Below, piece by piece: positions 6,422 through 58,700 of a DNA stretch of 64,000 nucleotides. This DNA comes from Enterococcaceae bacterium (GTDB lineage Bacteria > Bacillota > Bacilli > Lactobacillales > Enterococcaceae), in NCBI GenBank assembly GCA_022649665.1, contig JALCOL010000004.1, positions 124,001 to 188,000 on the forward strand. The letters are read 5' to 3'. Position numbers and translations under genes: made by a program. Within the stretch, counting starts at the first letter, position 1. Every line of letters starts with the position of its first letter. The notes beneath the pieces are model-generated. The model did no database searches. It had not been told where the DNA came from and was given only the letters and a program-made list of their open reading frames with translations.

Positions 6422-6429
6422 GCGATCGA

Positions 6430-7225
<796 letters not shown>

Positions 7226-7262
7226 AGCAAACTATCTCAATATCCGAGGAGGAATGAAAAGA

Positions 7263-7817: not shown

Positions 7818-7846
7818 ATTCTCAGAGCACCGTTGATTCGAAATAG

Positions 7847-7878
7847 AGGGCCGTGGCAATTCGTCACCGGTCCTTTTT
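7847..7878 (+). terminator. Terminator after frr
   Basis: AGGGCCGTGGC pairs with GTCACCGGTCC with one bulge and G-U pairs, followed by five T. Confidence 0.65.
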
Positions 7879-7949
7879 GATTTTCAGCAGCGCAGAAAGC
7901 CTAATTTTTTTTGAAATCTCCGGGGAAAATAGGAATTTGCGGGAAAAAT

Positions 7950-41381: not shown

Positions 41382-42242
41382 ATGAACATCAAGCAAATCA
41401 AATATGTTTTAGCGGTCGCCGACTGCGGCAGCTTCCGTGAAGCTGCGAAACAAATGAAAGTGACCCAGCCTTCGCTTTCGCACGGCATCAAAGAGCTGGA
41501 AAAAGAATTGGAACTGCCGCTCTTGATCCGAACGAATCGCGGTGCTTTTTTAACGAAAAGCGGCCAAGAATTTTATCGCGATGCTGAAAGGATCGTTTAT
41601 CAGCTGGAACGGCTGCAAGGAAACTTCAGCGAGGTGCCGCAAACCGCTGGACTGCGGATCGCTCATCAGCATTTTTATTTCGTTGCGCAAGCGGTCGACC
41701 GGCTTCTTAAAGGCGATTCGCACTGCCGACAGATCGAACTCGCAGAATATCAGCGCGCCGCGGTCATCAAAGATGTCGCAGATTCCCGCAGCGAAATTGG
41801 GATCATCCGTTATTCGGCAGCTGAAAAAAATGAAGTAGCGCAGCAGTTGGAACGTCGCGGACTGACTTGCCGACTTTTGGAAAAGCAGCCGACAGTGGTT
41901 TATGTCAGCGAAGATCATCCGCTGGTGCAGCAAAAAAATCTCGCGCCGCAAGCATTGGCAGCTTATCCGGAGGCCCAGCTGGTCGAGCCTAATGGTCCAA
42001 CAAGAAACAGCCACTTGCATAAACAGGTGATTGAAGCGACTGACCGCGGCACGCTTTTCGGGATCTTGCAGCACACAAATGCCTACACGATCGGCTGCCG
42101 CCTTTTCGCTGAACGACCGCTTCGCTCGCTGGTCTGCGAACCGGAAAAAAACGAGATTGGGCTGCTTACTAGAAAAAATCTGCCGCTTTCACTCAGCGGG
42201 GCACAATTTATCCGCGAATTGTATGAAATGTTGAAGGCATGA
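41382..42242 (+). CDS. LysR-family regulator 1 of sulfate assimilation
   Basis: A 286-residue LysR-type transcription regulator. The winged helix-turn-helix is at residues 1-60 (IKQIKYVLAVADCGSFREAA, TQPSLSHGIKELEKELELPL), followed by a periplasmic-binding-like effector domain. It is the first gene behind the T-box, so its own synthesis is linked to tRNA charging. It is closely similar in layout to the second LysR gene at 52139. It probably senses a sulfur or APS-type signal, like CysL or Cbl, but the ligand is not evident. RBS GGAGG, ATG 41382. Confidence 0.9.
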   Translation: MNIKQIKYVLAVADCGSFREAAKQMKVTQPSLSHGIKELEKELELPLLIRTNRGAFLTKSGQEFYRDAERIVYQLERLQGNFSEVPQTAGLRIAHQHFYFVAQAVDRLLKGDSHCRQIELAEYQRAAVIKDVADSRSEIGIIRYSAAEKNEVAQQLERRGLTCRLLEKQPTVVYVSEDHPLVQQKNLAPQALAAYPEAQLVEPNGPTRNSHLHKQVIEATDRGTLFGILQHTNAYTIGCRLFAERPLRSLVCEPEKNEIGLLTRKNLPLSLSGAQFIRELYEMLKA

Positions 42243-42273
42243 AGCAGCACCAAAAACTTTGGGAGGGATGAAA

Positions 42274-43086
42274 ATGAAAAAAGAATTGATTCCCGGCCGC
42301 GGGATAAGCACGGTGATCACCTTGATCAGTTTGACGATCGTCATTTTGATCCCTTTTACGTCGCTGATCATCGACGGTGCCGCGATCGGCTGGCATGAGT
42401 TTTGGCAAGTCACGCTTGATGCACGCGTTTTAGCCAGCTACTGGGTCAGTTTGCGCGGGGCATTTTTGGCCGCTTTGATCAATACGATCGTCGGCACGGT
42501 CATTGCTTGGGTATTGACCTTTTACCAGTTCCCGGGCCGCAAGTTGATCGATAACCTGCTGGAGCTGCCATTTGTTCTGCCGACAGCGGTCGCCGGGATC
42601 GCGCTGGCATATTTGTTTTCGGACAAGGGCTGGTTCGGGCAGCTGCTGGCACCGCTGAACATCAAAGTTTCTTATACTTTTGCGGGAATCGTGATCGCAA
42701 TGATCTTTGTCACGATCCCTTTCGTCGTCCGCGAGCTGCAGCCGATCATGGAGCAGCTCGATCCCGCTGATCAGGAAGCCGCACTTCTTTTGGGCGCAGG
42801 GACGTTCACGATCCTCAGAAAACTGATCTTTCCGGAGATCTTTCCGGCGATGCTCGCAGGCTTCGGTTTGGCGTTTGCCAGAAGTCTCGGAGAGTACGGC
42901 AGCATCGTCTTTATCGCCGGCAATCAGCCGTACAAAACGGAGATCACGCCGCTTTTGATCATGTTCAAATTGCAGGAGCACGCTTACGCGAGTGCGACTT
43001 GCATCGCGATCGTGATGCTGCTGTTTTCTTTTTTTATTACGTACTTGATCCATCATATCCAGCAGAAAATCAAACGAGAGGCGTGA
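42274..43086 (+). CDS. cysT: Sulfate ABC transporter permease CysT
   Basis: One of two membrane subunits of the sulfate/thiosulfate importer. The 270-residue protein has about six membrane segments and a binding-protein-dependent transport EAA loop (DQEAALLLGAGTFTILRKLI). LPTAVAGIALAYLF and LARSLGEYGSIVFIAGN-like stretches are typical of CysT/CysU. ATG 42274 follows GGGAGGG at good spacing. Partners are CysW, CysA and the binding protein at the operon's 3' end. Confidence 0.93.
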   Translation: MKKELIPGRGISTVITLISLTIVILIPFTSLIIDGAAIGWHEFWQVTLDARVLASYWVSLRGAFLAALINTIVGTVIAWVLTFYQFPGRKLIDNLLELPFVLPTAVAGIALAYLFSDKGWFGQLLAPLNIKVSYTFAGIVIAMIFVTIPFVVRELQPIMEQLDPADQEAALLLGAGTFTILRKLIFPEIFPAMLAGFGLAFARSLGEYGSIVFIAGNQPYKTEITPLLIMFKLQEHAYASATCIAIVMLLFSFFITYLIHHIQQKIKREA

Positions 43087-43090
43087 GAGG

Positions 43091-43924
43091 ATGCTCATTT
43101 TGCAATCGAAAAAAGTCAAAAGGATCTTGATCGGCTTTGTCTGGCTCTTCGTGCTGCTTTTGATGCTTACGCCGCTGCTCTTTATTTTTATCAGCGCATT
43201 CAAAAGCGGCCCCAGCCATTATCTGCACGTGCTGCGCGATACGTTTACACTGGCCGCGGTGAAACTGACTCTTGCCGCAACGATTCTTTCCGTCGTGTTC
43301 AATACGATTTTTGGGTTGAGCGCAGCTTGGCTGGTCACTTTTTATGATTTTAAAGGGAAAGTGCTGCTGAATACGTTGATCGATCTGCCGTTTTCGGTGT
43401 CACCGGTGATCGCCGGTTTGATCTTTGTATTGACGTTCGGCCGCACCGGCTGGGCGTACCCGCTGTTAGCACATTTCGATATCCAGATCATTTTTGCCAA
43501 ACCAGCGATTTTTCTGGCAACGATCTTCGTGACTTTTCCTTTCGTCGCCCGCGAGCTGATCCCGTTTTTAGCGGTCCGCGGCCGCGAAGAAGAACAGACG
43601 GCGGCATTTTTAGGCGGGAATTTAGTGACGATCTTCCGCGAGATCACTTATCCGGCGATCAAGCGTCCGCTCATGTACGGCGTCGTGCTGGCCACGGCGC
43701 GCGCAATGGGCGAATTCGGGGCGGTCGCAGTTGTTTCCGGGAATATCCGCGGCGAAACGCAGACGCTGCCGCTTTTAGTCGAAGCACTTTATAACGAGTT
43801 CAAGATCAGCGATGCGTTTGCTGTGGCAACGATCCTCGTATTTTTCTCTTGCGTCATCATGATCTTAAAGGGCCGGATCGATCAGAAAAAAAGAAAGGCG
43901 GACGAGCAATGTATATCGAATTAG
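43091..43924 (+). CDS. cysW: Sulfate ABC transporter permease CysW
   Basis: The second membrane subunit, 277 residues, about six membrane segments. The EAA-type loop is REEEQTAAFLGGNLVTIFRE; ATARAMGEFGAVAVVSGN and LPFSVSPVIAGLIFVL match CysW. It starts four bases after cysT and its last codons overlap cysA by 16 bases. Its final segment is followed by a basic tail (GRIDQKKRKADEQ). Confidence 0.93.
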   Translation: MLILQSKKVKRILIGFVWLFVLLLMLTPLLFIFISAFKSGPSHYLHVLRDTFTLAAVKLTLAATILSVVFNTIFGLSAAWLVTFYDFKGKVLLNTLIDLPFSVSPVIAGLIFVLTFGRTGWAYPLLAHFDIQIIFAKPAIFLATIFVTFPFVARELIPFLAVRGREEEQTAAFLGGNLVTIFREITYPAIKRPLMYGVVLATARAMGEFGAVAVVSGNIRGETQTLPLLVEALYNEFKISDAFAVATILVFFSCVIMILKGRIDQKKRKADEQCISN

Positions 43925-44970
43925 AAAAGATCTCGAAAAAATATCAAAACAATCAAATTTTGACGGATGTCGACTTAGGGATCGAAGAAGGAAGCTTGAC
44001 CGCTCTGCTTGGTCCAAGCGGCAGCGGGAAAACGACGATCTTGCGGATCATCGCCGGCCTGGAAGCGGTCGAAGCCGGAAATATTTATATCGACGGGCAG
44101 CGCGTCAATGCGGTCGCACCCAACAAGCGCGGGATCGGCTTCGTTTTTCAAAACTATGCGCTCTTCAAACATGTCGACATCTACGACAATATCGCGTTCG
44201 GGCTGCGTACCCAAAAAATCGATGAAGAGGTGATCGAAGCGCGCGTCAATGAACTGTTAGAGCTGACCGGACTTGCCGGTCTGGGCGATCGTTTTCCCGA
44301 TCAGCTTTCCGGCGGCCAAAAGCAGCGTGTCGCCTTTGCCCGCGCTTTAGCGCCGAACCCGAAAGTCCTGCTTTTGGATGAACCGTTTGCAGCCGTCGAC
44401 TCGAAGATCCGCAAAGAATTGCGGACGTGGCTCAAAAATCTGATCCATCAAGTGGCGATCACGAGTGTCTTTGTGACACACGACCATGAGGAAGCGATCG
44501 AAGTGGCTGATCAGATCATCGTGACGAACAACGGTCAGATCGAACAGCGCGGCACACCGTTTGAAATCTACAGTTCGCCGCAAAGTTTGTTCGTGGCGCA
44601 ATTTATCGGCAATGGTTCGACGCTTCAAAATGTACCGGTAAACGGCTTTGATGCCCCGGATAAAAAATTTGCCTACACGATCCGCCCGGAAAACATCGCG
44701 ATCTATAAAAAAGAAGAGAAGCCGTTAGGGATCGTTGAAGAAGCGATCGTCAAAGAAATTACTTTTTCAGGGGCGCGGATCAATGTGCTGCTTGAATATA
44801 AAGGGCATCTGCTCCGCGGCGAACGCTCGATCCAGCAATCGCAGCTGGCAGTCGGCGAAACGGTCGGGATCTTGATCCACCAGCTCAATATTTTTTCCGA
44901 AAAGGCCAGTCAGCCATGCGGGGCGACCAAAAACAAAAACATCTATACGGAGATCCCGTATACCATCTAG
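43909..44970 (+). CDS. cysA: Sulfate ABC transporter ATP-binding protein CysA
   Basis: ATPase subunit of the sulfate importer, 353 residues. Walker A GPSGSGKTT (about residue 36), Q-loop VFQNYALFKH, signature LSGGQKQRVAFARAL and Walker B VLLLDEPFAAVD are all intact. A TOBE-like regulatory domain follows from about residue 240. AAAGGCGG precedes ATG 43909, inside the end of cysW. It ends 23 bases before the AprA-like gene. Confidence 0.94.
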   Translation: MYIELEKISKKYQNNQILTDVDLGIEEGSLTALLGPSGSGKTTILRIIAGLEAVEAGNIYIDGQRVNAVAPNKRGIGFVFQNYALFKHVDIYDNIAFGLRTQKIDEEVIEARVNELLELTGLAGLGDRFPDQLSGGQKQRVAFARALAPNPKVLLLDEPFAAVDSKIRKELRTWLKNLIHQVAITSVFVTHDHEEAIEVADQIIVTNNGQIEQRGTPFEIYSSPQSLFVAQFIGNGSTLQNVPVNGFDAPDKKFAYTIRPENIAIYKKEEKPLGIVEEAIVKEITFSGARINVLLEYKGHLLRGERSIQQSQLAVGETVGILIHQLNIFSEKASQPCGATKNKNIYTEIPYTI

Positions 44971-44993
44971 CGCAGGAAATGGAGGGACAGCAG

Positions 44994-46688
44994 ATGCAAA
45001 AAAAACTTATCAAAAGCGATCTCTTAGTGATCGGCGGCGGCACGGCCGGCTGCTTTGCGGCGCTGCGTGCAGCAAAGCTTGATCCGGCGCTTAAGATCGT
45101 GATCGCCGAAAAAGCAAATATCACGCGCAGCGGCTGTTTGGCAGCAGGAGTCAATGCCTTGAATGCCTATATCACCAAAGGCAAAACGCCGGATTTTTAT
45201 GTCGATTACGCAAAAAAAGATGCCGCTGGGATCGTACGCGAAGACTTGCTTTTGACACTCAGTCAGCGGCTGAACCGCGTGACGGCTGAGATGGAAGCGC
45301 TCGGACTGGTCATTTTGAAAGATCAAAACGGCGAATACGCGGTGCGCGGGGACCGCAATATCAAGATCAATGGCGAAAATTTCAAACCGCTGCTCGCTAA
45401 AGCGGTCCGCAAGACGCCGCAGATCGAAGTCGTCAATCATGTCAATATCGTCGAATATCTTGTTGCCGGCCGCCAGATCTACGGCGCAGTCGGCTTCAGC
45501 GTCAATGAAGAAATCAGCTATATTTTTCAAGCGGACGCAGTGATCTGCACGACTGGCGGCGCAGCTGGACTGTACCGCCCGAACAATCCAGGATTTTCCC
45601 GCCACAAAATGTGGTATCCGCCCTTCAATACCGGTGCTGGATATGCGATGGGGATCCAAGCAGGTGCGGAAATGACGACATTTGAAATGCGCTTTATCGC
45701 CCTTCGCTGCAAAGACACGATCGCCCCGACCGGCACGATCGCACAAGGCGTCGGTGCCCGCCAAGTCAATGCGCGCGGGGAAGATTATGAGCAAAAATAC
45801 GGCACTACGACGTCTGAACGGGTATATGGAACCGTGAAAGAAAATCAAGAAGGCCGCGGTCCCTGCTATTTGGACACAACAAAGATCACGGAAGAACAGG
45901 AACAAGATCTTTACCGGGCATATTTGAATATGGCGCCGAGCCAAACATTGAAATGGATCGAAAAAAACAGCGGACCGCGAAACCATCCGGTCGAGATCGA
46001 AGGAACTGAGCCGTATATCGTCGGCGGCCATACGGCGAGCGGGTATTGGGTCGCGACTGACCGCGAAACGACGATCAAAAATTTGTACGCAGCGGGCGAT
46101 GTCGCGGGCGGCGCGCCGCAGAAATATGTGACCGGTGCGCTGGCAGAAGGCGAGATCGCCGCCGAAGCCGCGGTCCAAAAAATCAGCCGCCAAAAGACGG
46201 ACCGTCAAAAAGAGAGGCAGGCGCTCCGGAGAGCCGACCAAGTGATCCGGGAAGCCGAACAGGATCTGGCGCGCCAAGAGGCACTGTTTTCTATCGAAGC
46301 GATCGAAGAAGCGATGCAAAAAATCATGGATACTTACGCTGGCGGGATCTCGGCGAGTTACGCCTATAACGAGCAGCAGCTCGCGATCGCCGCGGAGCGC
46401 ATCCAGCAGCTGTCCGCTTTGGCGCAAACCGCCAAAGCAGCCGATATGCATGAGCTGAAAAATCTCTATGAACTCAAAGAACGTCTCATCGTCTGTCAAA
46501 GTGTGATCGCACATTTGCATGCGCGGAAAGAAACGCGCTGGCACAGTTTTGCCGAAAATCTGGACCATCCGGCAAAAGACGACCGCTATTTAAAATATGT
46601 CAATTCAGTTCTGGAAGACGGCAAGATCAAGATCCGCTTCCGCGAACTGGTGAAAAGAGGCGAAGTATATGAGCATCCGAATCAATGA
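44994..46688 (+). CDS. aprA: Adenylylsulfate reductase alpha-like flavoprotein (AprA)
   Basis: A 564-residue FAD protein of the succinate dehydrogenase/fumarate reductase family. The FAD loop DLLVIGGGTAGCFAALRA is at residues 9-26. HKMWYPPFNTGAGYAMGIQA, GAEMTTFEMRFIALRCKD and the C-terminal TEPYIVGGHTASGYWVATD / NLYAAGDVAGG segments align with AprA, which reduces APS to sulfite and AMP. It is somewhat shorter than dissimilatory AprA. Next to CysD/CysN and a sulfite reductase, and with no CysH here, it most likely supplies sulfite for biosynthesis. ATG 44994 follows GGAGGG. It overlaps the ferredoxin subunit by 20 bases. Confidence 0.82.
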   Translation: MQKKLIKSDLLVIGGGTAGCFAALRAAKLDPALKIVIAEKANITRSGCLAAGVNALNAYITKGKTPDFYVDYAKKDAAGIVREDLLLTLSQRLNRVTAEMEALGLVILKDQNGEYAVRGDRNIKINGENFKPLLAKAVRKTPQIEVVNHVNIVEYLVAGRQIYGAVGFSVNEEISYIFQADAVICTTGGAAGLYRPNNPGFSRHKMWYPPFNTGAGYAMGIQAGAEMTTFEMRFIALRCKDTIAPTGTIAQGVGARQVNARGEDYEQKYGTTTSERVYGTVKENQEGRGPCYLDTTKITEEQEQDLYRAYLNMAPSQTLKWIEKNSGPRNHPVEIEGTEPYIVGGHTASGYWVATDRETTIKNLYAAGDVAGGAPQKYVTGALAEGEIAAEAAVQKISRQKTDRQKERQALRRADQVIREAEQDLARQEALFSIEAIEEAMQKIMDTYAGGISASYAYNEQQLAIAAERIQQLSALAQTAKAADMHELKNLYELKERLIVCQSVIAHLHARKETRWHSFAENLDHPAKDDRYLKYVNSVLEDGKIKIRFRELVKRGEVYEHPNQ

Positions 46689-46989
46689 GGCGCGCTGCAC
46701 CGGCTGCCGGCGCTGCATCGAAGCTTGCCCGGGCAACTTGATCAAACAGGAGCACGCAGGAAAGCGCAAAGCGGTGATGGCTTATCCGAAAGACTGCTGG
46801 GGCTGTACTTCGTGCGTCAAAGCTTGTCCGGAAGAGGCGATCTGTTTTTATCTGGGAGCGGACATCGGCGGGCTGGGCAGCACGGTCACTGCCAGCGAAA
46901 ATCGGGAAAAGATCCGCTGGAAGATAAAGATGCGCGGCGGGCAGGAAGAAGAGATCGTGATCGAGCGCAACAATGCAAACAAATACTAA
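46669..46989 (+). CDS. aprB: Adenylylsulfate reductase beta-like ferredoxin (AprB)
   Basis: A 106-residue protein with two [4Fe-4S] motifs: Cys10, 13, 16, 20 (CTGCRRCIEACP) and Cys43, 46, 49, 53 (CWGCTSCVKACP). The Trp between the clusters and the C-terminal strand tail (KIRWKIKMRGGQEEEIVIE) resemble AprB, the electron-transfer subunit of APS reductase. It is shorter than dissimilatory AprB, whose long tail wraps the alpha subunit. The overlap with aprA supports a stable complex. The electron donor is unknown. Confidence 0.85.
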   Translation: MSIRINEARCTGCRRCIEACPGNLIKQEHAGKRKAVMAYPKDCWGCTSCVKACPEEAICFYLGADIGGLGSTVTASENREKIRWKIKMRGGQEEEIVIERNNANKY

Positions 46990-47007
46990 AAGAAAGAAGC
47001 GGATCAA

Positions 47008-47808
47008 ATGGATCATTTGGATGAACTTGAAGCAGAAAGTATTTATATTTTACGAGAAGCGTATAAGAATTTAGGAAAACTCGGGATGCTGTGGTCGATC
47101 GGCAAAGATTCGACGGTCCTTTTGTGGCTGGCGAAAAAAGCCTTCTTCGGCTATACACCATTTCCCTTTATCCACGTCGATACGACGTACAAGATCCCCG
47201 CAATGATCCAATACCGCGACAAAGTGGCAAAAGACTTGGATCTGGATCTGATCGTCTACACCAATGAAGAGGCCGTGAAAGACGGCATGGGTCCAGAACG
47301 CGGGCGGCTAGTCTGCTGCGGGGCGCTCAAAACAGCGGCGCTCAATCAAATGACGAAGAAATACAAATTTGACGGCCTGATCGTCGGCGTGCGGCGCGAC
47401 GAAGAAGGTTCACGCTCAAAAGAACGCGTCTTTTCTGAACGGGACTCCAAAGATCAATGGGATTATACGAACCAGCCGCCTGAATTATGGGATGCTTTCA
47501 AAACTGATTTTCCAAAGGGCAACCATATCCGTGTCCATCCGCTCCTTCACTGGACTGAGATCGATGTCTGGGAATATATCCAAAGAGAAAACATTCCGGT
47601 GATCGACCTGTACTTTTCTAAAAACGGCCGCCGCTACCGCAGTCTTGGGTGCGCGCCTTGTACCGGAACGATCGAATCCGACGCCAAAAATGTCGCTGAG
47701 ATCGTTGAAGAGCTGAAACATACGAGCGTCAGCGAGCGTGCCGGCCGTGCGCAGGATAAAGCCGACGCCTACGCGATGCAAAAACTGCGCAAAGACGGAT
47801 ATATGTAA
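47008..47808 (+). CDS. cysD: Sulfate adenylyltransferase subunit 2 (CysD)
   Basis: Catalytic subunit of ATP sulfurylase, forming APS from ATP and sulfate. The 266-residue protein is of the PP-loop family with SIGKDS at residues 30-35. It also has [39 protein letters not shown] and the C-terminal [13 protein letters not shown]. CysH-type APS/PAPS reductase motifs (ECGLH) are absent, so it is not a CysH. It pairs with the GTPase CysN 40 bases downstream. Confidence 0.94.
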
Positions 47809-47848
47809 GCTGCTGCAGCAAAAGAGAAATCAGAAAGAGGGAATCGCG

Positions 47849-49534
47849 ATGTCTTCAGAATCATTACGAATCGTTGTTGTTGGACACGTCGACCACGGGA
47901 AATCGACCGTGATCGGGCGTTTATTATATGATACACATGCTTTGCCGGAAGGAACGGTCGACAAAGTCAAACGGATCGCCAAAGAAACCGGCAAGCCGTT
48001 TGAATATGCCTATTTGCTGGATGCTTTTGAAGAAGAGCAGAAGCAGGGGATCACGATCGATACGACGCAGCTCCAATTCCAAAGCGGCAAACGCGAATAT
48101 GTGATCATCGATGCTCCTGGACACAAAGAATTTTTGAAAAATATGATCTCGGGCGCGTCAAATGCCGAAGCAGCTTTTTTGATCGTGGACGCGAAACGCG
48201 GCGTCGAAGAACAGACGAAGCGTCATGCGTATATTTTAAAATTGCTGGGGATCGAACAGATCTATGTGCTCGTAAACAAAATGGATCTGGTCGACTATCA
48301 AGAAGCGCGCTTCAACGAAGTCCGGCAGGAACTGGATACTTTCCTAGCTTCGCTCGGACTTCAAGCAGCGGGATATTTGCCGATCTCGGCGTATTACGGC
48401 GAGAATCTGCTGGGCAAGTCCGCGAAACTGGCGTGGTACAAAGGAAAGAGCTTTATCGATACACTCGATCACATCGAAGCGAAAGAAGGCATGGAAAAAC
48501 GCGGATTGCGATTTGCGATCCAAGACGTTTTCAAATTTGATCAGCGGCGGATCATTGCCGGGCGGATCGAATCCGGCACGTTGAAAGCGGGCGATGAAGT
48601 CGTCATTTACCCTAGCGGCCGCAAGACGGTCGTCGAAAACTTCGCTTATTGGGCAGATCGCGACCAGACCGCAAGTGCCCAAGCCGGGCAGTCTGTCGGC
48701 GTGACGTTTCAAGATGAATTCTTCAATCACCGCGGCGACGTGATCACCCTTGCCAAAGATACGCAGCAGCCGTTCGTCAAAAATATCGTCCAAACCAATT
48801 TATTTTGGATGGGCAAGACACCCTTAGAAAAAGGGAAATCATACAAACTCAAGATCGCGACGCAAGAAGTGATCGCAAAAGTGGCTGAGATCGTGAAAGT
48901 GATCGACTCCAGCACATTGTCCGAAGTGACGGATGCGGAACGGGTCCATTTGAATGATGTGGCCGAAGTCGTCTTTCAAACGGAACAGCCGGTCGTTTTT
49001 GATTTTTTCGGCGAACACCATGAAACAGGAAGATTTGTACTCATCGACGGCTATGACGTGGCCGGCGGCGGGACGATCACGGAAAATTATCAGGGCGATG
49101 CGGAGCTTTCCGGTACGATCTTTTCGGCTGGCGAAGAAAACTATCAGTTGAATCTTTTCGACCGCTACGCCTTTACTGGCGGCGGAAAAATCGAAGCCGC
49201 GGAGCATGATGGAAATTATCAGTTGGGCAGCGCGCTGCCGTTGACAGGTGCCGGCTACCATTATCCGACCGATTTTGCGGTCCTTTTGGAAGGACAGAAC
49301 ACGCTTTTGAAAGTGGCTGACGGGAGGTTTTCCGAAGTTGCCAACTTGAGCGAAGACCTCACCGCAAAAACACTGGTCAATACGCGCGGCTTCAAGCTGA
49401 ATATCACCAGTCCAACAGAGCTTGCGGATTATTTGAACGAACAAGAAGTGATCAACGATAAAAACAAAGCAGCCTTTTATCAAAAATGGCTCGATTTCTC
49501 CGCGTTCCACCAAATCGCGATCGATGATCTGTAA
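47849..49534 (+). CDS. cysN: Sulfate adenylyltransferase GTPase subunit (CysN) with extra C-terminal domain
   Basis: The 561-residue regulatory GTPase of ATP sulfurylase. G1 GHVDHGKSTV lies near residue 12, G3 DAPGHKEFLKNMISGASNAE, and G4 NKMDLVD, followed by two EF-Tu-like beta-barrels. Ordinary CysN ends soon after the FVLIDGYDVAGGGTI strand (about residue 400). Here about 150 more residues follow, with no P-loop, so the tail is not the APS kinase found in CysNC fusions. I do not recognise this domain. The start ATG 47849 follows AAAGAGGG. Confidence 0.9.
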   Translation: MSSESLRIVVVGHVDHGKSTVIGRLLYDTHALPEGTVDKVKRIAKETGKPFEYAYLLDAFEEEQKQGITIDTTQLQFQSGKREYVIIDAPGHKEFLKNMISGASNAEAAFLIVDAKRGVEEQTKRHAYILKLLGIEQIYVLVNKMDLVDYQEARFNEVRQELDTFLASLGLQAAGYLPISAYYGENLLGKSAKLAWYKGKSFIDTLDHIEAKEGMEKRGLRFAIQDVFKFDQRRIIAGRIESGTLKAGDEVVIYPSGRKTVVENFAYWADRDQTASAQAGQSVGVTFQDEFFNHRGDVITLAKDTQQPFVKNIVQTNLFWMGKTPLEKGKSYKLKIATQEVIAKVAEIVKVIDSSTLSEVTDAERVHLNDVAEVVFQTEQPVVFDFFGEHHETGRFVLIDGYDVAGGGTITENYQGDAELSGTIFSAGEENYQLNLFDRYAFTGGGKIEAAEHDGNYQLGSALPLTGAGYHYPTDFAVLLEGQNTLLKVADGRFSEVANLSEDLTAKTLVNTRGFKLNITSPTELADYLNEQEVINDKNKAAFYQKWLDFSAFHQIAIDDL

Positions 49535-49560
49535 AAACAGCAGAAAGGCAGGCGGAACGA

Positions 49561-51159
49561 ATGTACGAAGCAACGTGGAAAGAACAGAAGCTCAACAAAA
49601 ATGAACTCAGCAAATTAAAAGAAGACGGACTGGATGTGTTCAAAGACCTGCCGGAACTAGTCAAAAAACCTTTTTCGGCAATCGATCCTGCATATTATAT
49701 GTATTTTAAATATGCGGGATTGACCGTCCAAAAGCCGAAAAAAGACGGTAATTTCATGATGCGGGTCAAAATTCCCGGCGGGATCTTGACGACGAAGCAG
49801 GGACAGCATTTGGCCGATATCGCGGAAATATACGGTAAAGGATTGCTCGACATCACGACGCGGCAATCAGTCCAATATCACTGGATCCCTTTCCGCAAAC
49901 TGCCTGAGATCTTTGAAGGCCTAAAAACATACGGACTAACGACTACCGGCGCAGAAGGCGACATTACCCGCAACGTGATCGACAATCCCTTGGCGGGAAT
50001 CGACCCGTTCGAATTGTTCGACACCCGGCCAGCGGTGCGCCGCGTTCATCAGCGTTTCCAAAACAACCGCGACTATTCCAATCTGCCGCGCAAAATGAAG
50101 ATCTCGATCAGCAGCAACGTCTATAATGCGGGCAATGCCGAGATCAATGATCTGGCGTTTGTCCCAGCGTCCAAACGCATCAACGGCCGCAAGATACTCG
50201 GCTTCAACGTGAAAGTCGGCGGCGGACTGGGAGCCTTGCCGCAACTCGGCAAACCGCTTGATGTTTTCGTCACCCGCTCACAAGTCGCCGAGCTGGCAGA
50301 AGCAGTCGTCACGCTTTACCGCGATCATGGACCGCGGCGCAACCGCGCACATGCCCGGCTGAAATTTTTGATCCAAGACTGGGGGCTCGAAAAATTTGAA
50401 GCAGAGCTGCGCCAAAAGCTGCCCAAACTGCCAACCGCCGGTAAAGACGAACTCTTGGGCTGGAACGGCGGAACGGTTTTAGGACTCCACGAACAAAAGC
50501 AGGCAGGTTTTTATTATTTGGGAATCGGCGTGGCCGCGGGACGCCTGCCAGCCGCTGATTTCCGCCGATTTCTGCAGATCGCAGACAATTACGGGGCTGG
50601 TGAGGTCCGTTTCGATCATTCGCAAAATCTGATCATTCCGGGGATCCCCAAGCAAAAACTTGCTGCTTTGAAAAATGAAACGATTTTGCTGCAATATTCC
50701 GATCAAGAAGAGTACATGGCGAACTACGGTTTGGCTTGCACCGGCAGCCAATATTGCAATCTGGCGCATACCCGCTCAAAAGAGATCTTGAACGAACTTT
50801 TGCCGAAGCTCGATCAGCGCTTTACTTTCAAACGTCCGCCGCGGATCGTTGTGACGGGCTGTGCGAATGGCTGTGCACACCGCAGTATCGCAGACATCGG
50901 GATCGAAGGGGTCGCTGCCCGAAACAAGAACAAAGAAGTGATCGAAGCGTTCAAGATCTCGCTCGGCGGCACGCTGAAGACCGGCGGGCATTTCGCTCAA
51001 ACGCTTCGCGGCGTTGTGCCTGTCGGACAGCTAGAAGCAGTCGTCACGGCGCTTTTGACACTTTATCAAACCCATCATCAAGGGGAAACATTTGCGGAAT
51101 ATGTCGAGCGCAGCGGGCTGGCAGTATTTCAAAAAGTATTGGACACAATTATCGAATAA
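49561..51159 (+). CDS. Siroheme sulfite reductase (NirA/Sir family, ferredoxin type)
   Basis: A 532-residue nitrite/sulfite reductase hemoprotein with two ferredoxin-like half domains and the siroheme-[4Fe-4S] region. The ligands are Cys393, Cys399 (ACTGSQYC) and Cys434, Cys438 (GCANGC). RQSVQYHWIP and the basic substrate-binding stretch before GDITRNVIDNPLAGID are visible. Position after CysD/CysN and AprAB argues for sulfite rather than nitrite. No flavoprotein CysJ is nearby, so ferredoxin is the likely donor. ATG 49561 follows AAAGGCAGG. Confidence 0.88.
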   Translation: MYEATWKEQKLNKNELSKLKEDGLDVFKDLPELVKKPFSAIDPAYYMYFKYAGLTVQKPKKDGNFMMRVKIPGGILTTKQGQHLADIAEIYGKGLLDITTRQSVQYHWIPFRKLPEIFEGLKTYGLTTTGAEGDITRNVIDNPLAGIDPFELFDTRPAVRRVHQRFQNNRDYSNLPRKMKISISSNVYNAGNAEINDLAFVPASKRINGRKILGFNVKVGGGLGALPQLGKPLDVFVTRSQVAELAEAVVTLYRDHGPRRNRAHARLKFLIQDWGLEKFEAELRQKLPKLPTAGKDELLGWNGGTVLGLHEQKQAGFYYLGIGVAAGRLPAADFRRFLQIADNYGAGEVRFDHSQNLIIPGIPKQKLAALKNETILLQYSDQEEYMANYGLACTGSQYCNLAHTRSKEILNELLPKLDQRFTFKRPPRIVVTGCANGCAHRSIADIGIEGVAARNKNKEVIEAFKISLGGTLKTGGHFAQTLRGVVPVGQLEAVVTALLTLYQTHHQGETFAEYVERSGLAVFQKVLDTIIE

Positions 51160-51182
51160 CAAATCAGAAAGAGGGGGAAGCG

Positions 51183-52139
51183 ATGATTTCTTTTGTTGGA
51201 GCAGGACCGGGAGATTTTGAACTGATCACCGCCAAGGGGATCCGCCGTCTGCAGAATGCCGATGTCGTGATCTATGACCGGCTCGCGAGCCCCTTGCTGC
51301 TGTTTTACTGCAAGCCGAGCTGCCGCTTCGTTTATGTCGGGAAAACACCATATCAAAAAACGATCACGCAGCAAAAAATCAATCAATTGCTTCTCCATGC
51401 GCAAGCGGCCAGTACAAACGTCGTTCGCCTGAAAGGCGGTGATCCGGTGATTTTCGGCCGGCTGTCTGAAGAGCTCAAAGCCGTTCAGCGGGCAGGGCTT
51501 CAGTTCGAGGTCGTCCCAGGAGTCACGGCCGCGAGCGGGATCGCCGCCTACGCTGGTGTTTCGCTTACCGAACGCATGATTTCTTCCGAAGTCCTATTCG
51601 CCAGCGGAAAAAAGAAAAACAACAAGACTGCTGATTATTCGAACTTCAGACCGGAACAGATGATCTGTTTGTACATGGGGATCGATGCGCTGCCGGAACT
51701 CGTGGAAGCGCTGAAAAAGCAGGGTTTTCTGCCGAACACCCCGGTCAGGATCACGAGCTGGGGTACGACTGGTTTTCAAGAGAGCGTTACCGGCAGTCTC
51801 GCTTCGATCTTGCCGCTGGTTCGCGTGCAGGAGATCAAAAATCCGGCGATGATCATGGTCGGCTGGGCGGTCGCAGAAGAAAAGGGGCGCGACTGGTTCA
51901 GCACCCAGCCTGATTTTGGCGAGCGCCTGCTGATCGTTGCCTGCCGGCGGCCGACGATCGCGGAGCTGATCGAATACACTGAGAATGGCGCGGCTGTTTG
52001 GTGGCGGCAAGTCGGGCCTATGCGCGATCAGCGTTTTGATGAAGTCGGCACGATCTATGAAGCGGAACATCACTTTTCAAATGTACTTTTTGCCGATGAA
52101 GCGGCGCAACGCTACTATGCGGAACAGGGGGTCAGCTGA
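51183..52139 (+). CDS. cobA: Uroporphyrinogen-III C-methyltransferase (SUMT) with C-terminal tail
   Basis: SUMT methylates uroporphyrinogen III twice to give precorrin-2 for siroheme. The 318-residue protein shows SFVGAGPGDFELITAKG, VRLKGGDPVIFGRLSEE, VVPGVTAASGIAAYAGVSLT and LYMG, all family motifs within about 245 residues. Some 70 extra residues follow, beginning GERLLIVACRRPTIAEL and ending NVLFADEAAQRYYAEQG. They loosely resemble a shrunken HemD half, but the complete hemD at 40132 makes that uncertain. AGAGGGGG precedes ATG 51183. Its stop overlaps lysR2 by one base. Confidence 0.92.
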   Translation: MISFVGAGPGDFELITAKGIRRLQNADVVIYDRLASPLLLFYCKPSCRFVYVGKTPYQKTITQQKINQLLLHAQAASTNVVRLKGGDPVIFGRLSEELKAVQRAGLQFEVVPGVTAASGIAAYAGVSLTERMISSEVLFASGKKKNNKTADYSNFRPEQMICLYMGIDALPELVEALKKQGFLPNTPVRITSWGTTGFQESVTGSLASILPLVRVQEIKNPAMIMVGWAVAEEKGRDWFSTQPDFGERLLIVACRRPTIAELIEYTENGAAVWWRQVGPMRDQRFDEVGTIYEAEHHFSNVLFADEAAQRYYAEQGVS

Positions 52140-53029
52140 TGAATATCCAGCAATTGCAATTTGTGATCGCTGTTGCCGAAAGCGGCAGTTTTCGCGCAGC
52201 TGCCAAGCGCCTTTATATCGCTCAGCCGAGTTTGTCGCGCGGGATCAAAGAACTGGAAAAAGAGCTGGCAACAGAATTATTCCAACGGACCGCCAAAGGG
52301 GCGAAGTTGACGAATTCCGGTTATTTATTTTATGAAGAAGCGCGCAAGATCACCAAGCAGTTCAGTGCACTGAATGAGCGTTTCGCTCCAAAAAATGCAG
52401 CGGCACATTTGGTTATTTCGGGCCAGCATTATGACTTTTTAGCGGTGATCGTCAGCCGGATACTGGCACTTGACGCAGCGCAGACGATCCGCATCGCCGA
52501 AGGGACGACCCTTGAAGTGATCGAAGACGTTGAAACATACAAAAGCGAGCTGGGTGTCATTTGTCTGGATCCGCAAAACCAAAGCGGACTGCTGCAGATT
52601 TTAGCGCATCAAGGTTTGGAGTATCAAACGGTCACAAGTTTTCGGCCGCACATTTATTTGAGCCGCAACCATCCGCTCGCCGCTCGCCAAGAGATTCGCC
52701 AAAGTGATTTAGCGCCATATCCGCAAGTTCGTTTTTTGCAGGAATCTTCCTATCGCCAGCTGGCAGAAGATCCGCTCGCTCAGCCGAAAAAAGGGGTGAC
52801 GATCCTGGCAAGCGACCGCGGGACCCTTAACGAAGTCTTGCAGGCAGGAAATGCTTATGCATCCGGCTCGGGACTTGTTTCTGATCCGGAAGAACAAGAG
52901 CTGGTACTTGTTCTGCTCGCGGACGGGGCGGAAAGCGAGATCGGGATCGTTACCCGCAAGAATCAAAAATTGTCTGAACACGCCGCACTTTTTACAAAAG
53001 AACTGCAAAACTACTTGCAGACTAGTTGA
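52139..53029 (+). CDS. LysR-family regulator 2 of sulfate assimilation
   Basis: A 296-residue LysR-type regulator paralogous to the one at 41382. The helix-turn-helix holds VIAVAESGSFRAAAKRLYIA and QPSLSRGIKELEKELATEL, followed by a ligand-binding domain. It is translationally coupled to SUMT (TGATG). Having regulators at both ends of the same operon suggests two signals or two targets, for example the sulfate operon and the siroheme operon (inference). Confidence 0.9.
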   Translation: MNIQQLQFVIAVAESGSFRAAAKRLYIAQPSLSRGIKELEKELATELFQRTAKGAKLTNSGYLFYEEARKITKQFSALNERFAPKNAAAHLVISGQHYDFLAVIVSRILALDAAQTIRIAEGTTLEVIEDVETYKSELGVICLDPQNQSGLLQILAHQGLEYQTVTSFRPHIYLSRNHPLAARQEIRQSDLAPYPQVRFLQESSYRQLAEDPLAQPKKGVTILASDRGTLNEVLQAGNAYASGSGLVSDPEEQELVLVLLADGAESEIGIVTRKNQKLSEHAALFTKELQNYLQTS

Positions 53030-53055
53030 TTTTTTACATAAATGGGGGGACTTTG

Positions 53056-54123
53056 ATGGGAAAACGCGTCAAGAAAGATCGAACGAAAGAGAATATTTTG
53101 CGTGCGGCAACAGCAATCTTGGTGGTTGTGAGCCTTGGGGCGTTTAAATGGCTGCTTTCTCCCGAAACAGATCACTCAGCGGAAAAAGACAAGACCGTCA
53201 CGATCACGAATGTCTCCTATGATCCGACCCGTGAGTTGTATCAAAGCTATAACCAGCTTTTTCAAAAATATTGGAAAGCGAAGACTGGCGAATCAGTCAA
53301 AATCAATCAATCGCACGGCGGCAGCGGTTCACAAGCCAATTCGGTCATTTCCGGCAATAAAGCTGATGTCGTCACGCTGGCATTGAGTCCGGACATTACC
53401 AGTATCGAAGAAGCCGGCTTGATCGACAAAGGATGGGAAAAGAAACTTCCTGATGACGCGGCACCATACGCTTCGACGATCGTCTTTTTGGTGCGCAAGG
53501 GAAACCCAAAAAACATCACCGACTGGTCTGATTTGATCAAAAAAGAGGTCGCCGTGATCACACCAAACCCGAAAACGTCCGGCGGGGCTCGCTGGAATTA
53601 TTTGGCCGCTTGGGCATATGCGGACCAAACGAATGGACACCAAACCGAACAAACTGAACAATTTGTCAAAAAGCTCTATCAAAATGTCAAAGTGCTGGAT
53701 GCGAGTGCGCGTGCGGCAACGACGACCTTTACCGAAAACGGCCAAGGAGATGTTTTAGTCGCTTGGGAGAATGAAGCGTATCTCGCGCTGAAAGATCATC
53801 CGGACAAATATGAAATCATCACGCCGAGCATCAGTATCAAAGCGGAGCCGACAGTTGCAGTCGTCGATAGCGTGGCCGAAGAAAGACATACGACAAAAAT
53901 TGCCCAAGCCTATTTGAAATATCTGTACTCGGAAAAAGCCCAAAAAATCGCCGCAGAAAATTATTATCGGCCTTCCAGCGAAAAAGTCGCCGCAGAATAT
54001 GCTGACCGCTTTGCCAAAGTGAAAATGATCTCGATCAATGATCAAGAGTTCGGCGGCTGGGCAAAAGTCCAGAAGAAGCATTTTGCGGAAAACGGGATCT
54101 TTGATCAGATATATAAAAAGTAA
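53056..54123 (+). CDS. Sulfate-binding protein of the ABC importer
   Basis: A 355-residue extracellular solute-binding protein of the Sbp/CysP family. Motifs are SHGGSGSQANSVISGNKADV, NPKTSGGARWNYLAAWAYA and GDVLVAWENEAYL, which form the sulfate site. The N terminus has a basic stretch and a membrane segment (about residues 18-34) but no cysteine lipobox, so it may be an uncleaved membrane-anchored protein. That is unusual for a Gram-positive binding protein. ATG 53056 follows GGGGGG. It is the last gene of the operon. Confidence 0.92.
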   Translation: MGKRVKKDRTKENILRAATAILVVVSLGAFKWLLSPETDHSAEKDKTVTITNVSYDPTRELYQSYNQLFQKYWKAKTGESVKINQSHGGSGSQANSVISGNKADVVTLALSPDITSIEEAGLIDKGWEKKLPDDAAPYASTIVFLVRKGNPKNITDWSDLIKKEVAVITPNPKTSGGARWNYLAAWAYADQTNGHQTEQTEQFVKKLYQNVKVLDASARAATTTFTENGQGDVLVAWENEAYLALKDHPDKYEIITPSISIKAEPTVAVVDSVAEERHTTKIAQAYLKYLYSEKAQKIAAENYYRPSSEKVAAEYADRFAKVKMISINDQEFGGWAKVQKKHFAENGIFDQIYKK

Positions 54124-54280: not shown

Positions 54281-55348
54281 ATGAAAGGGTACGGAGCAAT
54301 CAAAATCAATCAACCAGGTTGGATCGAGAAGGAACGGCCGACAGCCGGTCCGTTGGATGCGATCATTCGCCCGACGGCACTTGCACCATGCAGTTCGGAT
54401 ATCCATGTGATCCATGGAGGCTTTGGCGAAATCACTGACCGCATCGTTGGGCACGAAGCAGTCGGCGAAGTTGTCGAAGTGGGGAACCTTGTCAAAAATT
54501 TCCAACCGGGAGACAAAGTAGTCATTCCGTGTACTACACCGGATTGGGAAGCTGTTTCGCTTCAAGACCGCAATATCAATAATGCGCACGACTTTGGGTT
54601 GATGAAAAGTTTTAAATTTCTCTCGCAAAAAGACGGCGTGTTTGCCGAATTTTTCCATGTGAATAATGCCGACGCAAACTTGGTCCATATGCCGGAAAAT
54701 GTCAGCGTGGAAGATGCTTTGATGACTGTGGACATGATGTCGACTGGTTTTTACGGCGTTGAAAATGCTGAAGTAAGCTTTGGCGATACAGTCGTGATCT
54801 TCGGGATCGGGCCAGTCGGGTTGATGGCTGTTGCCGGAACCGCGCTGCGCGGCGCAGGCAAAATCATTGCGATCGGCACGCGGCCGAATTGTGTCGAACT
54901 TGCTAAAGAATTCGGCGCAACGGATATCGTCAGCTATAAAGACGGCGACGTGGTCGAACAGATCTTGGCCATGGGCGGCAAAGTCGATAAAGTTATTTTA
55001 GCGGGCGGAAATTGCTCAACGATGAATCAAGCGCTCGCACTCGTTAAACCAAACGGCATTATTTCCAATATGAACTTTTTGGATGTCAAAGATAAATTCG
55101 ATATTCCTGCTGCGCTTTGGGCACTCGGGATGGGCGACATCACGATCCGCTCGGGATTCTGTCCAGGCGGAGCACGCCGGATCGAACGGCTGCTTGAAAT
55201 CATTAAAGCCGGCCGCTGCCATCCCGGCAAACTTTTGAATAAAAAATATACCGGCTTTAGCGAAATCGAAAATGCGTACAAGATCATGGAAGAAAAACCG
55301 CGCGATTTGATCAAACCATATGTCGTGATCGACTGGGATAAAGAGTAA
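54281..55348 (+). CDS. Zinc-dependent secondary-alcohol dehydrogenase-like protein
   Basis: A 355-residue medium-chain dehydrogenase. It resembles clostridial NADP-dependent isopropanol dehydrogenase across its length: MKGYGAIKINQPGWIEKERP at the start, Cys37 in ALAPCSSDIH, His58-Glu59 in GHEAVGEVVEVG, IPCTTPDWEA, and the nucleotide-binding GIGPVGLMAVAG. The structural-zinc cysteine lobe is absent, as in that subgroup. It should reduce ketones or aldehydes or oxidise secondary alcohols; the physiological substrate is unknown. It has its own promoter and terminator and no partner. Confidence 0.88.
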   Translation: MKGYGAIKINQPGWIEKERPTAGPLDAIIRPTALAPCSSDIHVIHGGFGEITDRIVGHEAVGEVVEVGNLVKNFQPGDKVVIPCTTPDWEAVSLQDRNINNAHDFGLMKSFKFLSQKDGVFAEFFHVNNADANLVHMPENVSVEDALMTVDMMSTGFYGVENAEVSFGDTVVIFGIGPVGLMAVAGTALRGAGKIIAIGTRPNCVELAKEFGATDIVSYKDGDVVEQILAMGGKVDKVILAGGNCSTMNQALALVKPNGIISNMNFLDVKDKFDIPAALWALGMGDITIRSGFCPGGARRIERLLEIIKAGRCHPGKLLNKKYTGFSEIENAYKIMEEKPRDLIKPYVVIDWDKE

Positions 55349-55715: not shown

Positions 55716-58700
55716 ATGAAGAAAACGATCGTGGGTTTGACGGTTGGCTGTTTATTGATCCCGGGAATGCTGAATTCGGGGATCGCCTTTGCGGAAGCAA
55801 ATGAAAATCAAAATTCTACAGAAGAATCTGCCGCCGCAAAAATCTTGACGTCTCAAACAGCGGCATCAGCTGCACAAGAAACAGCGAGCTCTTCAGCCAA
55901 GGAGCCGGCTGCATCTTCTTCTGAAAATAAGGAAGCGAGCGCGCCAGCTGAAGCGTCAGCTGTACCAGAAACACCGGCTTTTACGGAAGAACAAGCAAAA
56001 CAATTGCAAGAAAAGCTTCCAGCAGATACAACGATCCAATTCACTGAGGGGAAGCTGATCATTGAACTTCCAGCTGACATTGATCCGAGCATCGCCCAAA
56101 AAGCTTATGACGATCTGAAACTTAATGTGCCAGTTGAAATTCGCGTGAAAGCAGCGAATCTTGATCAAAAAAGTGATTCGTATAAGCTGGGCATTCAAGT
56201 ATTTCAAGAAGCCATGATTGCAAATGCAGATAACTTAGGGGCTGCTGCAGAAATATTAAATGGGACGATTCCATCCGCAATAAAAAATAGTAAGGATTAT
56301 CAAAAAGCAATGATGGGTAACAGATTTTATTGGGGTGGAATATTTGGAAATTCAAATAGGTATGAAGAATATGGAACAGATTCATTTAAGGTGGATGCTA
56401 ACCAGTTTCAGGCTGGGATTGAGGCGGCTCGTCAGGCATATGCTCTAGAGTTAGAGGGTTATTTAGAGAAAATCAATTCTCAAGCAATGATTTATCGTGA
56501 CAAATTAGCAGACTCGACTGCGTATGTTCCAAATGCTGAATCAAGCATGGGAGGATTTTGGGGATTTATCAGTGGTGCTGGGACAGCTGTAGGAGAATTA
56601 ATCAAGAGATTTTTTGGTGGTGGATTAGATAAGAAAATTCCAGAAGTATGGACATATGACAGTAATTCACCATTAACCAGTGCTGGATCTTTTCAAGGAA
56701 GAAAAACAAAGAAAACTTCTGAAGTAGTGAAAGAAACACAAAAAAACTTGATTAATTATATTGGGATTGTTTTACCGACAGTTCAAAATATTTTGGTCAA
56801 AAGAACGCTCAAAGATCCGCGGGCGATCGGTGGTCCAGAAGGTGTGTTTTTACCTGAAACACTAAATGAAGCACTGACATTGAACAAAGGCCTGAATACG
56901 GTCACAAAAACTTTTGGCTTTGGTGATGCAATTAAATCAAACATCGCTGATCAGATTTATATCAGTATGCGGAACGCAGTGAAAACCGCGTTAGTTGAAT
57001 CAGGGCAAAAAGGATTGAATAAACAAATCGCAGTCCAATTGGCTGATGAAGCACCACTCGCTAGCTTCAAAACGATTAACGATTATTATACTGAAGGCGA
57101 AAGCTTGTCACTCGCTTATGATGCCACGTACACTTTGTCGCAAAGCTATATCACTCCGCTGAAGGCGATCGCAATGTCGAATGCTTTCATCAATGAAAAA
57201 GACAAGAGTCAAGGAGATTTAACGGAAGGGCAGCTGTTCGAGCTGCTGGCACGTGATCATGCCGATATCTTTACCGCGGAAACGATGCAGAAATTCAATT
57301 CAGACGGCGGGAAAGCCGCACGGGAGATGCTGTACAAGATTTACCGTGCTGAATTTGACGGGGTACAAAAAGCGATCAATGATTTCCAAGCGAATCCGTT
57401 TGAAATCGGGACGACCGCTACATTCACCAATCCAAACAACAATGAACAAGTCAATGTGCAGGATTACATCGTGATCTGGAATTGGCTCAACCTTGCTTCG
57501 CAAACTTTGATGAAAAACGGGATGCATGATGCGGATTTGAAGTCGCATGAACAAAAAGATGGGAAAGTCGCTGAAATCAGTGAAACACCAACTGAGCAAA
57601 TGACACTTGCGTCAAATGAAATCGCAGCGGCAAACCAAGCGTATCCGAATGATACGGACATCATTACTGAACATCACGATGAAATGATGGCGATCGCAAA
57701 AGACAGCTACCGATACTCTTACAATGCCGAAGCGAAACGAGCGAACACTGCTTTTGAAAAAGGCGGCGAAGAGTTCATCAATCAGGCGACCGTCAAGAAC
57801 AAAGAGCCATACTCGTTATATGGTTTGAAAGGAATCAAAGATACGCCAGATGAACCGCTCGATGCAAACTATACCGGCACGAATGACCAGACCTCTTCCT
57901 TATTCAAAGCAGGGGATCCGAATTATCTAGCCGGACTTGCTTTTAAAGACGGCTTCGCGAAAAAATTCGAAACGGACGGTTTGCAAATCGTCCTCGAAGT
58001 CCAAAAAGACAAAGACAGTCTTGGCGAAGTGTCCGAGCTGAAAGAATTATTTAAAGCTGACTCCTTGATGCGTTACGGTGTCATCAGTCAAAAGAAAACA
58101 ACGATCAATATCCCGAATGCAGCTGGGTGGGAACTGGAAGACCCGCAGCAGAAGGGACATTCGCTCAGCGGCAATACGATCGAACTTGAAAATCAGCCGT
58201 TTGAAACAGGCAACTATCCATATGAAAACGGACAGAAGCTCACCCATCAAAAGAAAATCGTTTTGAACTATAACAAGTTGCTGACGCCGAGTATTGAGAG
58301 CTTTACTGCAAACGGCTTTTCAGTTGAAGGAACGCTCAAAAGATATGAAGGCAAAAAGCAAACTGTTCAAATCAAAGATCAAAGCGGCACAGTGATCGTG
58401 ACCGCGAAAGTCGATCAAAAGGGCCGATTCGAAGCGGATCTTCCGCAAGACAAAGTCAAAGTCGGCGATACGCTTAGTGCAACCGCTGTTCTCGTCAATA
58501 CTTTCGGAACGGAAACAACGAGCGCGGCACGGCAAACAAAAATCACTGAAGGAACACTTGTCTTTAACGTAACGACCGCGAGCGGCAAAGACAATAACGA
58601 GCTGCTTTGGACCAAACGCTTGCTGCAATTGGGCAGCATCACATTAGACCGTGACGCAGGCAATGAGATCGAGATCGCTGTAAAAGACCATCGTCTCGTA

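Follow-up and report, generated by a model that had tools for sequence, protein, structure and literature searches.

The window analysed here is the whole stretch of 64,000 nucleotides at positions 124,001 to 188,000 (forward strand) of contig JALCOL010000004.1, from the Enterococcaceae bacterium assembly GCA_022649665.1, and it carries genes for an AprAB-like reductase within a run of sulfate-assimilation genes. Our analysis suggested that this AprAB is probably a ferredoxin-fed, assimilatory reductase of adenosine 5'-phosphosulfate (APS) that replaces both CysC and CysH, with substrate and donor inferred. The assimilatory role is very likely, and direct use of APS is likely. Sulfate would be imported by CysTWA with its binding protein and converted to APS by CysDN, after which the flavin adenine dinucleotide (FAD)/[4Fe-4S] reductase of AprAB type would turn APS directly into sulfite and adenosine monophosphate, the two clusters of AprB relaying electrons from ferredoxin to FAD. 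The siroheme sulfite reductase would then reduce sulfite to sulfide, and AprAB would stand in for both CysC (APS kinase) and CysH.

The absence of CysH and CysC from the locus, noticed in an earlier note on this DNA, extended to the whole assembly (2.37 Mb, 26 contigs, 95.2% complete). The search of this genome with PF01507 returned a single match, CysD itself, and NF002537, the reductase of 3'-phosphoadenosine 5'-phosphosulfate (PAPS), returned nothing above its cut-off, the CysD match reaching 79 against 154. The APS kinase family PF01583 had no match in the genome (51 candidates scored). Across 80 chosen genomes of the AprA family, CysH (NF002537) was above cut-off in 2, both of a Trp121-Asn122 type. 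Of 14 control genomes, 8 gave a match above cut-off with this profile, and distant CysH forms could escape it. The window sulfite reductase scored far below the DsrA and DsrB cut-offs, and no genome-wide search for DsrAB was made.

APS Kinase and Residues 122 and 376 of AprA

The case for APS came from a comparison of AprA residues with the presence of APS kinase in 178 non-duplicate AprA-related sequences (rows). Eighty loci were the best 80 of at least 553 relatives and lean towards the window's own clade; the others came from a class sample of 391 genomes and a phylum sample of 398 genomes, 81 of which had a match at E ≤ 1e-60. All 69 phylum-sample matches above cut-off were included, and those below it in part only. 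Flanks of about 8 to 10 kb were taken where contigs allowed. Three rows from repeat genomes (L180, L253, L254) were dropped before counting, and eight fumarate-reductase-like rows were left out of the tables of 170 rows. APS kinase was searched for in the genomes of all rows, at E ≤ 0.001 in one search and at E ≤ 1e-15 in the others, and counted at E ≤ 1e-15, excluding short matches of about 21 to 26 bits that came up at the looser threshold.

In a scan of well-filled alignment columns over 163 rows, position 376 was by mutual information the most informative about APS kinase, whether the kinase was counted in the locus or genome-wide. Lys376 rows had the kinase in the fetched locus in 29 of 39 cases and in the genome in 38 of 39, against 0 of 131 and 16 of 131 for all other residues (170 rows; Fisher p about 1e-24 for the locus and 6e-24 for the genome, relatedness ignored). 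The difference between loci is not due to short contigs, as it was the same where at least 1 kb lay upstream of aprA (28/37 Lys376 versus 0/126 non-Lys376). Where a kinase was present in the locus (29 rows), its distance from aprA was no more than 200 bases in 22, up to 1 kb in another 6 and greater in 1. Position 376 of the window protein aligned with His-A446 of Archaeoglobus fulgidus, which Meyer and Kuever, in the accessible part of their paper, place among residues possibly contacting the phosphate and ribose of APS (PMC2211403).

Position 122 ranked fourth (locus) and second (genome) in the same scan, which was run without Gln122 and fumarate-reductase-like rows, so that residue 122 had helped choose the 163 rows and residue 376 had not. 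Among the 178 rows, 33 of the 34 with Ser122 had a kinase in the genome and 25 had one in the locus; for the 113 with Asn122 these numbers were 14 and 2. Smaller classes were Asp122 (3 of 13 in the genome, 0 in the locus), Gln122 (1 of 7, 0 in the locus), Ala122 (2 of 2, both also in the locus) and Gly122 (1 of 1, 0 in the locus); the remaining 8 rows had no kinase. All of the best 80 of at least 553 homologues carried Arg121 and Asn122, as the window protein does, and Gln or His at 376 was found in 101 of 103 Arg121-Asn122 rows. Asn122 taken alone was rejected as a marker: L188 and L193 combine Asn122 with a kinase adjoining aprA and keep Lys376, and position 376 separates the groups better.

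A separate group with Trp121-Asp122 comprised short AprA-like proteins (13 rows) that have Asn376 and lack a kinase in the locus. L222, the single locus of this group that was examined, has the gene (6424-7940) beside those for AprB and an HdrA-like protein.

Evolutionary History of the Clade

The tree comprised 133 rows, with the residue columns discussed above removed and with Asn122 rows lacking a genome kinase thinned at 80% identity and the others at 97%. It was built by a 'quick' method and rooted at the midpoint; 42 of 130 inner branches were below 80, and L219, L223 and L224 lay on a very long branch. The window AprA grouped with four rows named as lactobacilli (Shimodaira-Hasegawa-like approximate likelihood ratio test, SH-aLRT, 99), inside a group of 57 rows with Asn122, Gln or His376 and no kinase in the locus (SH-aLRT 95). 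This group fell within one of 67 rows (96) that also contained Lys376 rows with kinase, and further Lys376 rows, including the Methanothermococcus thermolithotrophicus enzyme, lay outside. On this tree the window clade is nested among predicted PAPS-type relatives, most of which have an APS kinase near aprA, and the simplest reading would be a single replacement of Lys376 by Gln376, accompanied by loss of the kinase.

A broader proposal would be that a reversion from PAPS to APS, through Ser122Asn and Lys376Gln, let many gut and fermentative Firmicutes drop both APS kinase and the by-product 3'-phosphoadenosine 5'-phosphate (PAP), with residues 122 and 376 acting as a substrate code. We put this forward tentatively, at slightly under an even chance.

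Family, Fold and Catalytic Residues

The window AprA belongs to NF005331 (PRK06854, adenylyl-sulfate reductase subunit alpha), at 913.8 bits against a cut-off of 557, and the closest solved relatives of both subunits were the chains of 8a8o, the PAPS reductase of M. thermolithotrophicus (MtPAPSR). Identity of AprA was 52% to the 8a8o alpha subunit versus 37% to A. fulgidus AprA. An AlphaFold2 model of window AprA (mean predicted local distance difference test, pLDDT, 85.6) matched the fold of 8a8o_A first and that of 2fja_A third; pLDDT fell below 50 at 201-210 and 234-244, which contain W207 and R238, and the model was kept out of geometric analysis.

By alignment, the core catalytic residues are retained as N57, W207, R238, R276 and H346, equivalent to A. 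fulgidus N74, W234, R265, R317 and H398, whose roles were taken from the accessible part of PMC2211403. AprB has eight Cys in two CxxCxxCxxxC motifs and a bridging Trp44, equivalent to Trp42 of MtPAPSR, a residue proposed as an electron carrier in the available text of PMC10322725. The pair therefore shows the catalytic Asn/Trp/Arg/His and the two-cluster beta subunit with Trp of an FAD-type APS/PAPS reductase. In the predicted substrate pocket, at the places of the dissimilatory APS-pocket residues Glu141, Trp144, Gln145, Leu278 and His446 (A. fulgidus), window AprA has R118, R121, N122, Q251 and Q376, and at the place of the Lys120-Arg121-Ser122 of MtPAPSR it has D120-R121-N122, with Arg121 alone in common.

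The suggestion that both subunits are shorter than the dissimilatory forms and belong to a distinct clade was borne out. AprA has 564 amino acids (aa) versus 643-662 in solved dissimilatory chains, and AprB 106 versus 150-166. Window AprA reached 327.2 bits with the dissimilatory family TIGR02061, below its cut-off of 641.75, and AprB 67.3 bits with TIGR02060, below 135.65; the tree placed AprA outside the dissimilatory clade. A respiratory (dissimilatory) or sulfite-oxidising AprAB would share the fold and catalytic residues seen here. This reading was rejected on the family cut-offs, the tree and the gene neighbourhood, and we regard it as very improbable: the operon encodes sulfate import, the making of siroheme and a sulfite reductase of NirA type, and the neighbouring genes scanned in the window included no Qmo/Hdr or DsrAB gene.

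Weighing APS against PAPS as Substrate

The substrate is less obvious than the earlier note had assumed when it named APS, as the nearest characterised enzyme prefers PAPS; it is the correlation between residue and kinase that favours APS. MtPAPSR oxidised methyl viologen at 0.114 µmol per min per mg with PAPS versus 0.007 with APS, and Jespersen and Wagner proposed Lys120, Arg121 and Ser122 as its determinants for PAPS (available text of PMC10322725). Residue 376 is unmentioned in the main text of that paper.

Several observations weigh against direct use of APS by the window enzyme. MtPAPSR, its only characterised close relative, strongly prefers PAPS (PMC10322725, in the text available), and Arg118 and Arg121, at the positions of A. 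fulgidus Glu141 and Trp144, are common to the window AprA and the PAPS-type enzyme. The assembly is about 95% complete, and an APS kinase could sit in the missing part. Within the comparison, columns 519 and 266 separate the groups almost equally well, L188 and L193 show that residue 122 alone is not decisive, and for 16 non-Lys376 rows the genome encodes a kinase away from the locus. Moreover, Lys376 changed just twice on the tree, against seven changes of the locus kinase, and an independent-pairs test, with at most one informative pair, had no power and added no support, so that residue and kinase loss could be linked by descent alone. Finally, nothing in the tail of window CysN, described below, points to a lost kinase.

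A PAPS reductase of the MtPAPSR kind, whose kinase is missing from the assembly or goes unrecognised by PF01583, would fit the preference of this closest solved and assayed relative, the two shared arginines and the incomplete assembly. We consider it unlikely: the search of this genome found no APS kinase, 99 of the 113 Asn122 rows likewise come from genomes in which none was found, kinases in the fetched locus were confined to Lys376 rows, and Ser122 and Lys376 are both replaced in window AprA. Still less probable, in our judgement, is an enzyme that takes APS and PAPS alike, its residue changes reflecting relaxed selection after kinase loss with no switch in specificity. Position 120 is indeed highly variable within the clade, being occupied by N, D, P, K, W, T or further residues, and the few independent changes on the tree fit this reading; however, the invariance of Asn122 in the window protein and the best 80 of at least 553 rows, and the near-constant Gln/His376 of Arg121-Asn122 rows, look like constraint. 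The preferred reading was an AprAB that is likely to use APS directly.

Sulfate Assimilation Locus

The sulfate-assimilation genes and LysR regulators span 41382-54123 of the window, all on the + strand. Open reading frames (ORFs) and profile scores confirmed the earlier description of AprA- and AprB-like genes between a sulfate importer and CysD/CysN, followed by a siroheme sulfite reductase. The features are as follows.

41382..42242, +, LysR-family regulator, candidate operon regulator (PF00126 and PF03466)
42259..43086, +, CysT sulfate permease (TIGR02139, 334.8 bits, cut-off 246.1)
43091..43924, +, CysW-type sulfate permease (TIGR00969, 267 bits, cut-off 240; TIGR02140, 306.6, below its cut-off of 329)
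43909..44970, +, CysA-type ATP-binding cassette (ABC) transporter ATPase (PF00005, 119.8 bits; the name CysA is from the adjoining CysT/CysW)
44994..46688, +, AprA-like FAD subunit, 564 aa (NF005331, 913.8 bits, cut-off 557; 8a8o_A, E 6e-188)
46669..46989, +, AprB-like ferredoxin subunit, 106 aa (best PDB match 8a8o_C, E 3e-23; TIGR02060, 67.3 bits, below its cut-off of 135.65)
47008..47808, +, CysD, ATP sulfurylase small subunit (NF003587, 375.7 bits, cut-off 195)
47849..49534, +, CysN, ATP sulfurylase GTPase subunit, with a C-terminal tail of about 155 aa (TIGR02034, 342.3 bits, cut-off 336.1)
49561..51159, +, siroheme sulfite reductase, NirA-like, of sulfite/nitrite-reductase type (PF01077 and PF03460; best NCBIfam PRK09566, 406.9 bits, below its cut-off of 594)
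51183..52139, +, uroporphyrinogen-III C-methyltransferase for siroheme synthesis (TIGR01469, 237.1 bits, cut-off 185)
52139..53029, +, second LysR-family regulator (LysR-family NCBIfam matches, the best 25 all below their own cut-offs)
53053..54123, +, sulfate-binding protein of the importer (NF008022, 472.8 bits, cut-off 288)

The AprA frame is already open from an ATG at 44916, upstream of the start given above. Downstream of the operon, an alcohol-dehydrogenase-like ORF (54281-55348) is followed by a protein of 1081 aa (55716-58961), both noted by eye; the latter has a signal-like start and a Ser/Ala/Glu-rich region.

Electron Donor

The NirA-like sulfite reductase is probably ferredoxin-dependent. 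A flavoprotein partner was not seen in the operon, and CysJ was not searched for. Because the operon shows no such flavoprotein and its sulfite reductase is nearest to ferredoxin-type enzymes, ferredoxin is likely to be the electron donor of AprAB as well. A single ferredoxin of the host genome scored above the PF13370 cut-off, and its sequence looks like that of an intact small [4Fe-4S] protein. On another contig of the genome (L296), the minus strand at 1186-2691 encodes RnfB (TIGR01944, 109.9 versus 68.7 bits) beside an RnfA just below its cut-off (TIGR01943, 227.3 bits, cut-off 229.3). An Rnf complex could reduce ferredoxin with reduced nicotinamide adenine dinucleotide (NADH) and be its source for AprAB. 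The host is probably of lactic-acid type, and RnfA and RnfB genes are unexpected in such a bacterium.

C-terminal Tails of CysN

The tail of window CysN (49064-49534, about 155 aa) had no Pfam match and is a conserved extra domain, whose type is shared by 77, the window's included, of the 91 tails from Gln/His376-type loci. This type gave an HHalign figure of 0.08% against CysC, whereas an alignment of 9 Lys376-type tails gave 99.8%, all such percentages being single comparisons uncalibrated against a database; the idea that the window tail is a decayed APS kinase was rejected on this value. A single CysC profile scored 11.5 to 136 bits in 8 of the 9 Lys376-type tails and found nothing in that of L265. 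The other 14 Gln/His376-type tails resembled CysC at 93.6%, with four control families at 0.04-0.20%, and the two Gln/His376 tail types matched each other at 70% over just 10 columns.

CysN tails that are CysC-like to differing extents, some of them without a recognisable P-loop, occur in L176-L179, L183, L203, L267 and L268, where the locus also encodes a separate CysC, and in 14 further loci (L109 and L094 among them) where it does not. These tails are possibly decaying CysNC fusions. A degenerate regulatory domain that resembles APS kinase occurs in fungal ATP sulfurylase. In L265 (5116-6867, minus strand), the CysN frame continues into a stretch that, judged by eye, resembles an Rrf2/CymR-type regulator, either a real fusion or a frame artefact.

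Distribution and Significance

The earlier note had seen in this locus an unusual borrowing of dissimilatory AprAB that replaces CysH in biosynthesis. Replacement agrees with the assimilatory operon and the lack of detectable CysH and CysC; the borrowing was not supported, as the family is widespread, with at least 553 confirmed NF005331 relatives, and the nearest member with a solved structure is a PAPS reductase that serves assimilation. The family occurred in 15 of 391 genomes of the class sample and above cut-off in 65 of 398 of the phylum sample. Surprise at the host was fair: in a sample of its order, the family was above cut-off in 1 of 148 genomes, the host genus being represented by one genome. 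Among the matches listed, the nearest relatives of window AprA were Lactobacillaceae; Loigolactobacillus (L. bifermentans DSM 20003, locus L037, for one), Lentilactobacillus raoultii and Agrilactobacillus also carry the family, and most other loci listed were named as Clostridia. The host assembly gave no 16S match, and genomes of its family were 88-90% identical to Loigolactobacillus and Lentilactobacillus in BLAST pieces that took in DNA beside the 16S, which is no basis for naming the host's family. It is plausible that lactic-acid bacteria acquired the family by transfer from Clostridia.

Within the Gln376 group, where 2.5 kb of downstream DNA was available, AprB lay downstream in 89 of 89 loci, CysD in 88 and CysN in 87. 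A CysT was located upstream in 55 of 88, and just 12 of 96 loci showed a sulfite reductase like that of the window.

Many of the gut and fermentative Firmicutes with this family, in which CysH was not found here, might be judged incapable of using sulfate, or an aprA match could get them miscounted as sulfate reducers. If the residue code is true, sequence alone would tell which AprAB relatives need an APS kinase. It also offers a way to test, through two residues in close homologues of known gene neighbourhood, how an enzyme changes from one nucleotide substrate to another.

Comparison with Known Systems

MtPAPSR (8a8o) resembles the window AprAB in its alpha subunit, short beta subunit, fold, catalytic residues and assimilatory role. 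It differs in having K120-R121-S122 and K376, where the window has D120-R121-N122 and Q376, and, according to the available text of PMC10322725, it operates alongside an APS kinase and a phosphatase for PAP, unlike the window genome, in which APS kinase was not found. Dissimilatory AprAB (A. fulgidus 2fja/1jnr; Desulfovibrio gigas 3gyx) has the fold, FAD, two [4Fe-4S] clusters, catalytic Asn/Trp/Arg/His and predicted APS substrate in common with the window enzyme. Its chains are longer, its operon is another one and its pocket differs, A. fulgidus E141, Q143-W144-Q145, L278 and H446 becoming R, D-R-N, Q and Q. CysH, the thioredoxin- or glutathione-dependent APS/PAPS reductase, shares the pathway step and is unrelated to the M. 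thermolithotrophicus enzyme in sequence and structure (PMC10322725, in the text available); it was not found in the window genome.

The accessible part of PMC4845359 describes a similar set in the CymR regulon of Clostridium acetobutylicum (CA_C0102-CA_C0110), in which an AprA-type reductase, ferredoxin, sulfate transporter, CysD and CysN have consecutive locus numbers; unlike the window locus, it contains an adenylylsulfate kinase (CA_C0103). From the parts available, an AprB-like gene is present in Fusibacter (PMC9751042), and a thioredoxin-dependent APS reductase is listed instead for Clostridium thermocellum (PMC4676874). No paper listed in searches of the openly accessible literature pointed to a kinase-free assimilatory AprAB clade or a signature at residue 376. 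AprAB as an assimilatory route is already in print (PMC11328384, in its accessible part). What is new here is the correlation between residue 376 and APS kinase, and the finding is a variant within a known family, not a new kind of system.

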